DNA of 64,000 nt, from NCBI GenBank assembly GCA_002050275.1, contig MWTB01000004.1:62001-126000 (forward strand), read 5' to 3'. This document shows, piece after piece, positions 5,041 to 9,655 of the stretch. Made by a program: the position numbers and the translations under genes. This DNA comes from Anaerolineae bacterium UTCFX1. Its GTDB lineage: Bacteria; Chloroflexota; Anaerolineae; Anaerolineales; Villigracilaceae. The first letter of the stretch is position 1; every line of letters begins with the position of its first letter. The notes beneath the pieces are model-generated. The model ran no database searches and had not been told where the DNA came from. It was given only the letters and a program-made list of their open reading frames with translations.

Positions 5041-5158
5041 CTGTGGAGGAGCGCCGCACGAAAACCGATATTGTTGTTCCTGTTGTTCGGGTGGTTGTTG
5101 TTGCGGATCGCAACACGCGCGTTGTCTTCATTGTTGTTCCACGAGCCGCCGCGCAGAC
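5041..5158 (-). repeat. DGR template repeat TR1
   Basis: This 118-bp stretch is nearly identical to VR1 (6737-6873) at the end of the NACHT-FGE gene. Read on the minus strand it is rich in AAC codons and would encode an FGE-sulfatase tip (LRGGSW, then many Asn, then IGFRAALL), but no FGE gene leads into it: the avd stop lies 43 bases upstream. Aligned to VR1 there are 14 substitutions, all at positions where the template has A on the minus strand, out of about 33 adenines and 118 positions. The first 27 or so bases on the plus-strand side (5045-5071) are identical and would be the initiation-of-mutagenic-homology region. Adenine-specific change is the defining mark of a DGR template. Confidence 0.95.
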
Positions 5159-5201
5159 CCCATGACTCTTGCCCAGAGATTCGCGTATGCCGCGAACACT
5201 C

Positions 5202-5537
5202 TTACATCTGTTTTAGCCACGCGCCAAGCAAGTTCCCCACTTCTTTCAACTGTCGAACGGCATGTTCATATTGCCGCAGGGTGATCAGGTTTTGATCGCG
5301 CGAGAAACGAAGCCACAGACGCAATTGTTCCAGTTGAATATCTGCTTGATGAAGTGTATTGCGCCTCAATTCGGCTTTTGATTTTCCCGCCGCCACGAGC
5401 GAATCTTGAAAACCCAAAGCCAGTTGTTGAATTCGCTCGGAGAGGGTGAAACGATACGCGCGCGGGAATTTCTGCGCTTGCGGAATGAGCCAGAGCAAAA
5501 AATCGTACGTTCGAACGAACAACGGCGATTCGTTCAT
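5202..5537 (-). CDS. avd: DGR accessory protein Avd (four-helix bundle, S23/IVP-like)
   Basis: The protein has 111 residues from the ATG at 5537, which overlaps the RT stop as ATGA, so translation is coupled; a longer in-frame start inside the RT gene is less likely. The sequence is almost wholly helical, with basic and Gln/Leu-rich stretches such as LSERIQQLALGFQDSL and LEQLRLWLRFSRD. This fits the bAvd fold, a pentameric four-helix bundle. Avd binds RT and the template RNA and is needed for mutagenic cDNA synthesis in characterised DGRs. The template repeat begins 43 bases after its stop, the expected RT-avd-TR order. Confidence 0.88.
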   Translation of the reverse strand: MNESPLFVRTYDFLLWLIPQAQKFPRAYRFTLSERIQQLALGFQDSLVAAGKSKAELRRNTLHQADIQLEQLRLWLRFSRDQNLITLRQYEHAVRQLKEVGNLLGAWLKQM

Positions 5538-6662: not shown

Positions 6663-6677
6663 CTCGCCTTCGGCGAG
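6663..6677 (-). promoter_or_regulatory. GC hairpin between the DGR target stop and the RT gene
   Basis: CTCGCC, a 3-base loop and GGCGAG lie 53 bases past the target stop (minus strand), followed by GATTTTG. It may be a weak terminator, or the post-VR hairpin that assists retrohoming in some DGRs. The role is undetermined. Confidence 0.5.
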
Positions 6678-6729
6678 AGGGCTACGAGCACAGAACGCAG
6701 GAAACAGAAAACACGCTTCGCGAACACGA

Positions 6730-9655
6730 TCACCCGCTGGGGAGGAGCGCCGCACGAAAACCGATATCGTCGTACCTGATGTACGGGTGGTGGTTGTTGC
6801 AAAGCGTGGTGGTTGTTGCGGATCGCAACACGCGCGTAGCCTACAAGGTTGAGCCACGAGCCGCCGCGCAGACTTGGATACCGATTACTTTCATCATAAA
6901 AGTTTGCCTGCCATTCCCAAACGTTGCCGCTCATGCCCATCACGCCGTGAGGGCTTTCGCCCTGCGGGTACATCCACACGGGCGTGGTGCGGTTGATTCC
7001 GCTTTCGCGGGTGTTGGCGTACCGCGCAATATCTTCCTTTTTTGTTTTTGCTCCTTTCTTGTCCACAGGACTGCTTCGCTGGTCCCAAGCATATCGCTCC
7101 TTGGGGTCTTCGCCGCCTGCCGCAGAAGCCCACTCGACCTCCGTCGGCAAACGAATCAGTTTCGGTTTCGCCAATCCCTGCTTGCCTTCCTCCAAACTCT
7201 CCCAATTCTCCAATAACCATCTGCAATACGCGCTGGCTTCGTACCATGAGACTCCCACAACGGGCGCGTTGCGGCGCGAAATGCCGAAGCGCGGGTCGCG
7301 CCAATAGCGCGGGAGTAAAACGCCATCTTGGGTTTCGCCCTCTTCATCCTGCTGTGCTTTTTTCAGCCAACTCCACGGCTCCTCGCCCCAGGTTTCTTTC
7401 ATCGCTTGGCTCTTTTCATCGTACTTGGGAAAGTTAACCCAGTATTTCTCGTTTCCAAAATCGGCTTTGAGAAAACGCTCGTACTGTCCGTTGGTAACGG
7501 GGTATTTGGAAACAAGAAAATCATAGTTGACGCTTTGAGATTTGGAAATTGGAATAAAGGTCAAAAGGTCCTGAATAATGTATCCCAATTCGTCGAGCGT
7601 GTCGGCGGCGGAGGCGCGTTCAAGGGGCGAGAGTGCGCCTTTGAGGACAAGTCTCTGCAAACCCGCTACAACTTCCTTATCGCTGGGAGAGGGTTGGCTT
7701 GGGAAGGCGCGACGATACAAAGACAGCAGATCTCCCGCGTACCAAACTCCTCGCCAGAGTGGGTTATCTGAATTTGCGGGCAACTTTTCAGGCGCCAAGG
7801 CATTTAACAACGTGTCCATACGTTCCTGATCGCCCTGAGCAAAACATAGATACTCACCCAACAACATCACAGATTCACGCCAGCGGTCGCTTTTCAAAAC
7901 CAATTCAGAGGTTGTTTTCCCGAAATTTGGGCGAATTAAATATCGTGCCGCAAGATATTCCTCAAAGGTCAGGTGCGGAAAAGCATAGACACGTCGCGGC
8001 GGGCTTCCAGCAGGGGCATCGGCAGGAGTCACCGATCCTTGCAACATCAAAAGTCCGTTCGAACTCTGGCAATAATCCAAAAATGTTTGAACCTTGGCAA
8101 GGTCTTGAAAATGGGTTTGCAAAACGCCGGTCAGTAAATCTTCCGTTACAAGAGCGGGACCGCGCTTCTTTTCTTTTTCATCCTCGCGTCCCTCATGCGC
8201 TTTGAAGGCAATTTCCCATAGCGCGCGATCAAGTACAACACGCGAAACGCCAAGCTCGTCAATGATCGTGCGCTTCTGTGTTTTTTGCGATTGCCCTGCG
8301 ATTGGGCGCTCATATTCCCAACGCACGAGCAACAGGTCAACGCAACGTTCGTACACCTCGGCGCGCGTATCGGGCAAATCCCCGTAATGGGTATGCACCA
8401 CCGCCATCATCGTGAGAATGATCGGAAATGGCGCGATCTCGTGCAACCGGCGGCGGTCATCGGGTTGCAGAGAATCCAGCAATTGCTTGCGTTTGTTCTC
8501 AAGGTCGGGTTTGCGGGCTGGCTCAATGCGAATATGCTCATCATGCCAAGCATTGACGAAATATTCGATCTTCTCCATATCGAGCAGGGCAAGTTCGTGC
8601 GTTTCCCATCCGGTCAACTGCCATTTGAGATCGTGATAATACGAATAGGTGCGGCAGGTCACTAAAAATCTACTTACAGGCGAACGCCCATATTTTTGCG
8701 CAAAATCTTCCACTGCTTGCACAACGATCGGGCGCAAGCGCAAATCAGCCACTTCATCCAAACCATCAAACAACACTAATCCGCCTGCGCGTTCCAATTC
8801 AGGGAGAATAAGACCGGCAAAATCAACAGTCCGTTCATCATCCCTCAATGTTTGTTCAATGTAATTCTCGATCAATACCGCGCTTCCCTTTTGGCAATCT
8901 GCGGGAATGGTCTCTGCCATACGCCCAAGAGAAAGGATCAACGGAAGTACCGCGCCAGATTTCCAGCCCGGAAGCAGGTCTTGAATGCTTGTACTTTTGT
9001 CCGTTTCTGCCTGCGCCATCCGCAAAGCAAGGTAACGCGCAAAGGTAGATTTCCCCGTCCCCGGCAATCCCAGCAAAACCATGCGGCGGTCTTTCGATGC
9101 AAATAAGGCTTCCAGCGTTCCCAATGGGCGCGTTTCTCCACCGCCCAAAGTGAACAAGGCGTTTTCCGCATCTTCGTTAATATCCGGTCTCTGCCTTGTC
9201 TTTGTTTTTCCCGATTTATCAACAGGGGTGGTTGTATTCAAAGAGACGTACAAAGATTCCAGCGTCAAGCCGCCACGCGAAGGATCAGCAGATTGTGGGT
9301 CAATGCCCACCAAACGCATGGCGCGTGTGTCAGCGATCACAGCGTTTAAATATTTGGCATGCGCATCTAACGCATTCATTGTTTGATTTTTCGGTTTTAT
9401 CTGCGGGGATTCCACTACAGTCGCCGACGAAGCAGATTTTGATTCTCCTACATCAGGCTTGGCGCGGCTTCGTACAAAGATCTGATACGTAAAGACTAAC
9501 ATCGCGCCGATGGCAATCACATAAACTAATACGCGATAATCATCTGGAATACGATTACCCGCCAACGCAAGCACGATAATGATCAAAGCCGCGAAAGCAA
9601 GGATCGCGGTCAATTTACCCGCCAGCGTCTCAAGAAGTTTCGACCAATCTTTCAT
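6730..9655 (-). CDS. NACHT NTPase with FGE-sulfatase C-type-lectin domain; DGR target, frameshifted in VR1
   Basis: The start is the ATG at 9655 behind GGGAGG. Two membrane segments (residues about 15-34 and 40-61) tether the protein. The NACHT domain has Walker A GLPGTGKST (196-204), Walker B LVLFDGLDE (293-301) and the family motif FPHLTFEEYLAARYL (559-573). From about residue 711 an FGE-sulfatase domain (NGQYERFL, SWYEASAYCRWL, LPTEVEWASAAGG, GMSGNVWEW) ends in VR1. The span is 2,926 bp, one base more than a multiple of three. Removing a 19-nt duplication in VR1 (repeat units 6787-6800 and 6806-6819) restores a frame of 968 residues ending IGFRAALLPSG and TGA at 6730. As it stands the frame runs on into the RT gene. 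The expected role is a membrane-bound signalling NTPase with a diversified ligand tip (inference). Confidence 0.88.
6737..6873 (-). repeat. DGR variable repeat VR1
   Basis: It aligns to TR1 with one gap: offset 1,696 on the left part and 1,715 on the right. The gap is a 19-nt tandem duplication whose 14-nt copies, gtggtggttgttgc, lie at 6787-6800 and 6806-6819. Outside the gap, 14 changes all hit template adenines (for example AAC to CTC, TAC, GAC, CAC or ATC; GAA to GTA). The affected codons fall between GGSW and IGFRAA, the ligand-binding loop of the lectin fold. Confidence 0.95.

Follow-up and report, generated by a model that had tools for sequence, protein, structure and literature searches.

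What is a diversity-generating retroelement (DGR) doing at the end of a signalling NTPase gene, and why does the assembled copy of that gene read on into the element's own reverse transcriptase (RT)? Both questions are raised by a locus in a 64,000-nucleotide stretch of Anaerolineae bacterium UTCFX1 (GenBank assembly GCA_002050275.1, contig MWTB01000004.1, positions 62,001 to 126,000 of the forward strand), referred to below as the window, whose numbering we use for all features of the element. We think it very probable that the DGR diversifies the tip of an NLR-like NACHT-FGE sensor, and that the assembled allele is a frame-broken null with an accidental read-through into the RT. A NACHT-FGE target is not new for DGRs, being already published in the relevant parts of Dore et al. 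2024 (PMC10907252). The one unusual point is that the gene is frame-broken in this allele but intact in a second copy from a database.

The locus lies on the minus strand, in the order target with variable repeat (VR1), RT, Avd and template repeat (TR1). The target gene (6730..9655) encodes N-terminal helices, a probable NACHT-type NTPase and a C-terminal FGE (C-type-lectin-type) domain, the last matching FGE-sulfatase (PF03781) at 6806..7531 (E 1.4e-33, residues 709-950). Direct-repeat search and alignment place VR1 at the 3' end of the target (6737..6873) and TR1 at 5041..5158. The 351-aa RT (5534..6589; translation, profile search and tree) has an AAGGAG, read from the sequence as a Shine-Dalgarno-like site, at 6595..6600, and so likely has its own start. 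Its translation shows YVDD and IGNLTSQ, in line with the initial annotation, which had named YVDD and a DGR-type IGxxxSQ. The predicted coupling of Avd (111 aa, 5202..5537; profile searches) to the RT is likewise present, as an ATGA overlap at 5534-5537.

A pairwise alignment of TR1 and VR1 with a count of changes by base bears out an earlier alignment by eye, coordinates included: there are 14 substitutions (7 A>T, 4 A>C and 3 A>G), and the sole indel is 19 nt extra in VR1. The changes are not spread over all four template bases but fall at adenines only, with 0/85 at other bases (P = 1.6e-9 for 14/14 changes landing on the 33 adenines among 118 TR1 sites). The 3'-most difference, at 5044 in TR1 (TCCACA) and 6740 in VR1 (TCCCCA), is probably a fixed 3' homing-end mark as in other DGRs (an IMH-like mark), which would leave 13 changes attributable to mutagenic copying. 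Of the 66 aligned rows of our scan for TR/VR pairs, 45 have A>C as the last mismatch, 11 have A>G and the remaining 10 a different one. Sequence comparison showed the homologues to be hypervariable at the TR-adenine codons; an initial entropy value for 15 other positions (0.40 bits) was discarded because 7/15 were fixed or limited by the selection pattern, and the recomputed comparison omits those seven. The pooled adenine bias of the scan (1183/2095 A sites against 51/6279 others) is circular, as the scan selects for bias, and its sum includes the window, duplicate loci (L029 repeats L028) and a wrong-strand row (L097); we do not use it as evidence. A pattern search allowing up to 3 mismatches found no copies of TR1/VR1 in the genome beyond these two. 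A hairpin or cruciform after the VR is required in a subset of DGRs, according to the pertinent part of one study (PMC3521204). None lies directly after VR1 (z -0.03), and among four sequences only that of L014, a relative described below, stands out (z -3.16).

The RT matches RVT_1 (E 2.9e-19). Among solved structures it is most like the reverse transcriptase in 8ub7 (E 2.5e-45), the PDB entry for the RT/Avd complex of Bordetella phage BPP-1, which also contains an Avd chain. In a tree of 25 rows, which includes BPP-1, has flagged long branches (BPP-1 among them) and leaves out retrons, the RT falls among Anaerolineales/Chloroflexota relatives, on the same side as BPP-1 brt. A 100/100 split separates it from two RTs annotated as group II intron and from a plasmid RT whose type is not given; the rows for BalMu-1 and Fischerella, grouped there as DGR references, carry no DGR annotation. 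A grouping with group II introns, which the initial annotation had named as refuting, is not seen in this tree. The RT stays below cut-off with both the group II maturase model (140.8 against 300 bits) and the retron St85 model (50.4 against 235). Avd scores above the cut-offs of two curated models, DivGenRetAVD (101.7 over 80 bits) and bAvd PF22296 (78.5 over 40). By sequence criteria, then, the element is a DGR with a signalling-NTPase target: the TR/VR pair, RT, Avd, adenine-only changes and variability of the homologues can all be read directly.

The locus had been described as a complete DGR with a target ending in VR1. All the sequence parts were found, but the assembled target lacks its normal C-terminus. 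The 19-nt insertion in VR1 (6801..6819, its placement ambiguous within the repeat) consists of a 14-nt near-tandem copy plus 5 nt and, not being a multiple of three, breaks the target frame and garbles the last strands. Before the insertion the frame reads LRGGSW...NNHH; after it comes a garbled tail without the conserved GFR. The normal stop, a TGA at 6730-6732, is thereby out of frame, and therefore the open reading frame (ORF) continues past VR1 into the RT (5534-9823, 1429 aa). A VR at the C-terminus of a C-type-lectin fold within an intact ORF is thus found not in the assembled allele but in P0137, a protein retrieved by a database search with the target. P0137 (968 aa) is identical through residue 950, has the same variable residues, ends in an intact IGFR and shows no trace of the insertion; it represents a 90%-identity cluster of 25 sequences on 11 contigs, all different from the window's contig, the longest of them measuring 178,350 bases against 316,792 for the window's, and the comparison used this representative alone. 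Since the same gene with the same variable residues has an intact end there, we read the insertion as recent, rare or assembly-specific. Both units of the 14-nt repeat carry an identical A>C change. This suggests a duplication at the DNA level that followed mutagenic copying; for the same reason, we judged re-copying of TR by the RT unlikely as the source of the insertion.

The most serious competitor follows directly from P0137: its shared variable residues, on other contigs and without the insertion, are what one would expect if the insertion were an artefact of assembly or of a mixed population and the cells carried only an intact VR1 in an ordinary intact DGR. Roux 2021 (PMC8144416), in the part that concerns us, states that reads over VRs with many variants require special alignment, and such variants may well disturb assembly too. 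However, the insertion is orderly and resembles the product of ordinary DNA slippage, and four other relatives also carry frame-breaking VRs, though these are mostly metagenome assemblies as well. We put this explanation at a little under an even chance.

We propose that the RT and Avd would copy TR1 RNA with errors at adenines and that the mutated copy would be pasted over VR1, the C-terminal tip of the NLR-like NACHT-FGE protein. Each rewriting would then give a new lectin-type binding face to a likely intracellular danger sensor. The insertion would garble this tip and skip the stop, so that the sensor is null and its frame runs on by accident into the RT. Since TR1 is untouched and the 3' end of VR1 is still homologous to it, the broken VR1 should be replaced at a later homing event; meanwhile the RT would keep its own likely ribosome-binding site. 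The retrohoming activity, ligand sensing and defence role in this scheme are what we infer from the parts.

Several observations weigh against it. The window gives one VR1 allele from one genome, and no activity was observed; P0137 may come from another assembly of the same sample. The host genome G000, a 92%-complete assembly, yielded one RVT_1 match and one bAvd match. L012, the closest relative by RT (89% identity), has no VR in the 292 nt available upstream of its RT, and a VR in its genome sits on another contig. The NACHT region of the target has no Pfam match over cut-off (nSTAND3, 19.6 of 27.2 bits). PADLOC had no hit to the window's target; its only matches, both weak, were to the relatives L014 (mad8 at 20.1 bits) and L124 (PDC-S60 at 17.5).

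We apply the NACHT label on the basis of the relatives and the fold: NACHT is over cut-off in relatives L124 and L013 and reaches 26.3 of 26.7 in L014, and structure comparison finds the predicted fold of the target region to be like NLRC4/NOD2/NLRP3. N-terminal to it are only helices at residues 2-64, with low to medium pLDDT. The earlier description of the target as a signalling NTPase rather than a phage or surface lectin holds, the target probably being a NACHT-type NTPase with a C-terminal FGE domain. Whether such a switch need be an immune sensor is a separate matter, and a diversified NTPase serving, for example, self-recognition or cell-cell signalling in filaments would fit the PADLOC results just given, as well as the remark in the passages of Dore et al. 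2024 (PMC10907252) dealing with them that STAND-associated CLec domains lack experimental characterisation. The likeness of the fold to NLRC4/NOD2/NLRP3 and the published association with anti-phage STAND architectures argue the other way, and we regard a non-immune role as possible but unlikely.

Known systems place the proposed sensor in company. As set out in the sections of Dore et al. 2024 (PMC10907252) on these elements, clade 5 DGRs of multicellular bacteria, especially 5D, diversify STAND/NACHT proteins with FGE/CLec domains; filamentous Chloroflexi are among their hosts, and the targets are proposed as antigen sensors. The present element is like them in its DGR RT with an A-specific VR and, in the target, its probable central STAND NTPase and C-terminal FGE/CLec VR, and unlike them in that only one RT was found in the genome, the VR1 allele is frame-broken and a second TR/VR pair occurs some 11 kb away from the RT, in a KAP-FGE gene that has no RT of its own. 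The RT relatives include Anaerolineae, Accumulibacter and Chromatiaceae, the named ones being mostly Anaerolineae/Chloroflexota, and are consistent with possible membership of clade 5D. Conflict systems with DGR-diversified FGS domains, as portrayed in the corresponding part of Kaur et al. 2020 (PMC7159879), similarly join a hypervariable FGS/FGE domain to an NTPase in bacteria of multicellular habit; that part concerns vWA-MoxR ternary systems. The target shares an FGE-type C-type-lectin variable fold with Treponema denticola variable protein 1 (TvpA, PDB 2y3c), but in the present case it forms the tip of a large NACHT protein. The BPP-1 DGR, with brt and Avd homologous to the RT and Avd described here, shows A-specific mutagenesis and has a tail-fibre protein as its target; in contrast, the present element sits in a cellular genome, with an FGE-type target on an NTPase, and its order is VR-RT-Avd-TR where that of BPP-1 is Avd-TR-RT. 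To these examples the locus adds a clear case of a DGR aimed at an NLR-like protein, with wide VR variation across relatives.

Among those relatives, L014, from another Chloroflexota metagenome-assembled genome, shares the window's gene order, and its VR is intact, with 20 A-only TR/VR changes in a trimmed alignment and 22 in a longer one. An intact VR is also found in L124, from the genome of L012. When the L124 gene (4501-7653) is compared with the window's target, the FGE domain is 78.6% identical (187/238) as against 27.3% (168/616) for the N-terminal part and NACHT, and the neighbours are the same as those in the window (ndk-like, repeat-protein and thymidine-phosphorylase-like genes, named by reading). 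The NTPase half has probably been swapped and the sensor tip retained.

The window is not alone in having a frame-breaking VR: such VRs occur in 5/74 TR/VR pairs (the window, L066, L104, L119 and L122), a count that is not exhaustive, as pairs with more than one non-A mismatch in the 50-base seed go undetected, and in which L097 and L098 probably repeat L013 and L014 and a few VRs are cut by contig ends. The 74 pairs comprise the 66 scan rows (61 loci) less L097, a plus-strand artefact, plus 9 minus-strand rows of a second scan; the minus row of L099, the mirror of a counted pair, was left out. In L049 and L074 the gaps are non-triplet as well, but the frame still reaches GFR, and we did not score them as broken. 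A literature search at the level of titles and abstracts, with most subscription journals and preprints outside its scope, found no report of VR frame breaks or read-through in DGR targets. One bold interpretation is that frame breaks are a rewritable OFF state, by which a DGR would keep a standing pool of null NLR-like sensors and act as a phase-variation switch as well as a diversifier; as neither TR nor the homing end is damaged, the sensor would be switched back on, with a new face, at the next homing. We consider this improbable. With a broken allele beside an intact copy, reads alone could tell whether null alleles recur in DGR targets and are later overwritten by homing.

Slightly less probable still is that the insertion froze the target and that the DGR is retired and decaying. 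The broken frame of VR1 would fit this, as would the 9 non-A changes already present in the second pair, TR2/VR2. However, the RT and Avd are open with their motifs intact, and no substitution between TR1 and VR1 lies outside A. In a dead element such changes should accumulate, an argument made for inactivated RTs in the relevant portion of PMC3521204. Pairing is also kept in the 3' flank of TR1 (4840..5040, minus strand), a predicted structured part of the template RNA. Of the 30 pairs predicted for an alignment of 7 of 23 such flanks, 9 show changes on both sides (mean of shuffles 4.8; 1/500 shuffles as high), and 91.4% of cells are paired against 27.8-48.5% with partners slid, figures that are favoured by the derivation of the structure from the same alignment. 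Rfam gave no match in 4500-7000 at E<=1. The loop of a predicted stem in this flank (about 4889-4966) is taken up by a GC-rich stretch of 50-70 nt that is absent from L012, L013 and L014.

The read-through itself invites comparison with other long proteins. Sixteen match the RT, of which 6 carry FGE by Pfam listing; we inspected 8 of the 16, including all 6 FGE carriers. FGE precedes the RT in 5/6 (P0121, P0122, P0124, P0125 and P0129), while P0127 has them in the opposite order. The FGE-before-RT proteins all (5/5) lack the GFR tail that an intact VR would give, and P0124 and P0125 also lack part of the normal gap and the RT start. Because all five are without the normal tail, target-RT fusion looks like damage and is probably not design. 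Of 21 relatives that share the VR-RT order, 4 have an RT frame that stays open as far back as the VR, and in 2 of these it continues through the VR; at these gap lengths, 4.2 open gaps are expected by chance against the 4 observed. Thus, although the 150 nt from VR1 to the RT start stay open without a stop and those five proteins are known elsewhere, we reject as highly improbable that the 1429-aa NACHT-FGE-RT is a real selected fusion, for example one tethering the RT to the sensor, given the missing tails, an open-frame frequency at chance level, the same gene unfused in P0137 and the RT's own AAGGAG. Long FGE-RT 'fusion' proteins in databases may accordingly be broken VRs and not new architectures.

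The second pair of the window (17619-18107) belongs to a KAP NTPase-FGE gene, a second target-like gene of 730 aa (17970..20162, minus strand) without its own RT or Avd, with VR2 at its 3' end (17986..18107) and TR2 at 17619..17740, both also on the minus strand. TR2 and VR2 differ at 18/31 A sites and 9/91 other sites (P 2e-7 for the adenine excess). On account of the 9 non-adenine changes, it is probably some time since VR2 was last overwritten, and TR2/VR2 is probably the older pair. As the 92%-complete genome gave a single match each for RT and Avd, TR2, if still working, would be served in trans.

A comparable orphan pair is L142, in the same-genus genome G013 (99% complete, no RT match at E 1e-60): a KAP-FGE gene has a VR near 3597 and a TR 344 nt downstream, with 9 A-only changes in the best 50-nt window, and the TR 3' flank is strongly similar to that of TR2. 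On contig C23 of the host genome, the FGE genes L126 and L127 have VR-like tails that share fixed codons and differ elsewhere, as if from one template. No template was found within their 5.5-6 kb stretches or by an 18-base pattern genome-wide; one extra match to this pattern with 2 mismatches (L139) does not look like a template. Elsewhere in the window, at 11336-14125, a gene for a 929-aa protein contains internal direct repeats of 69 nt and 133 nt.

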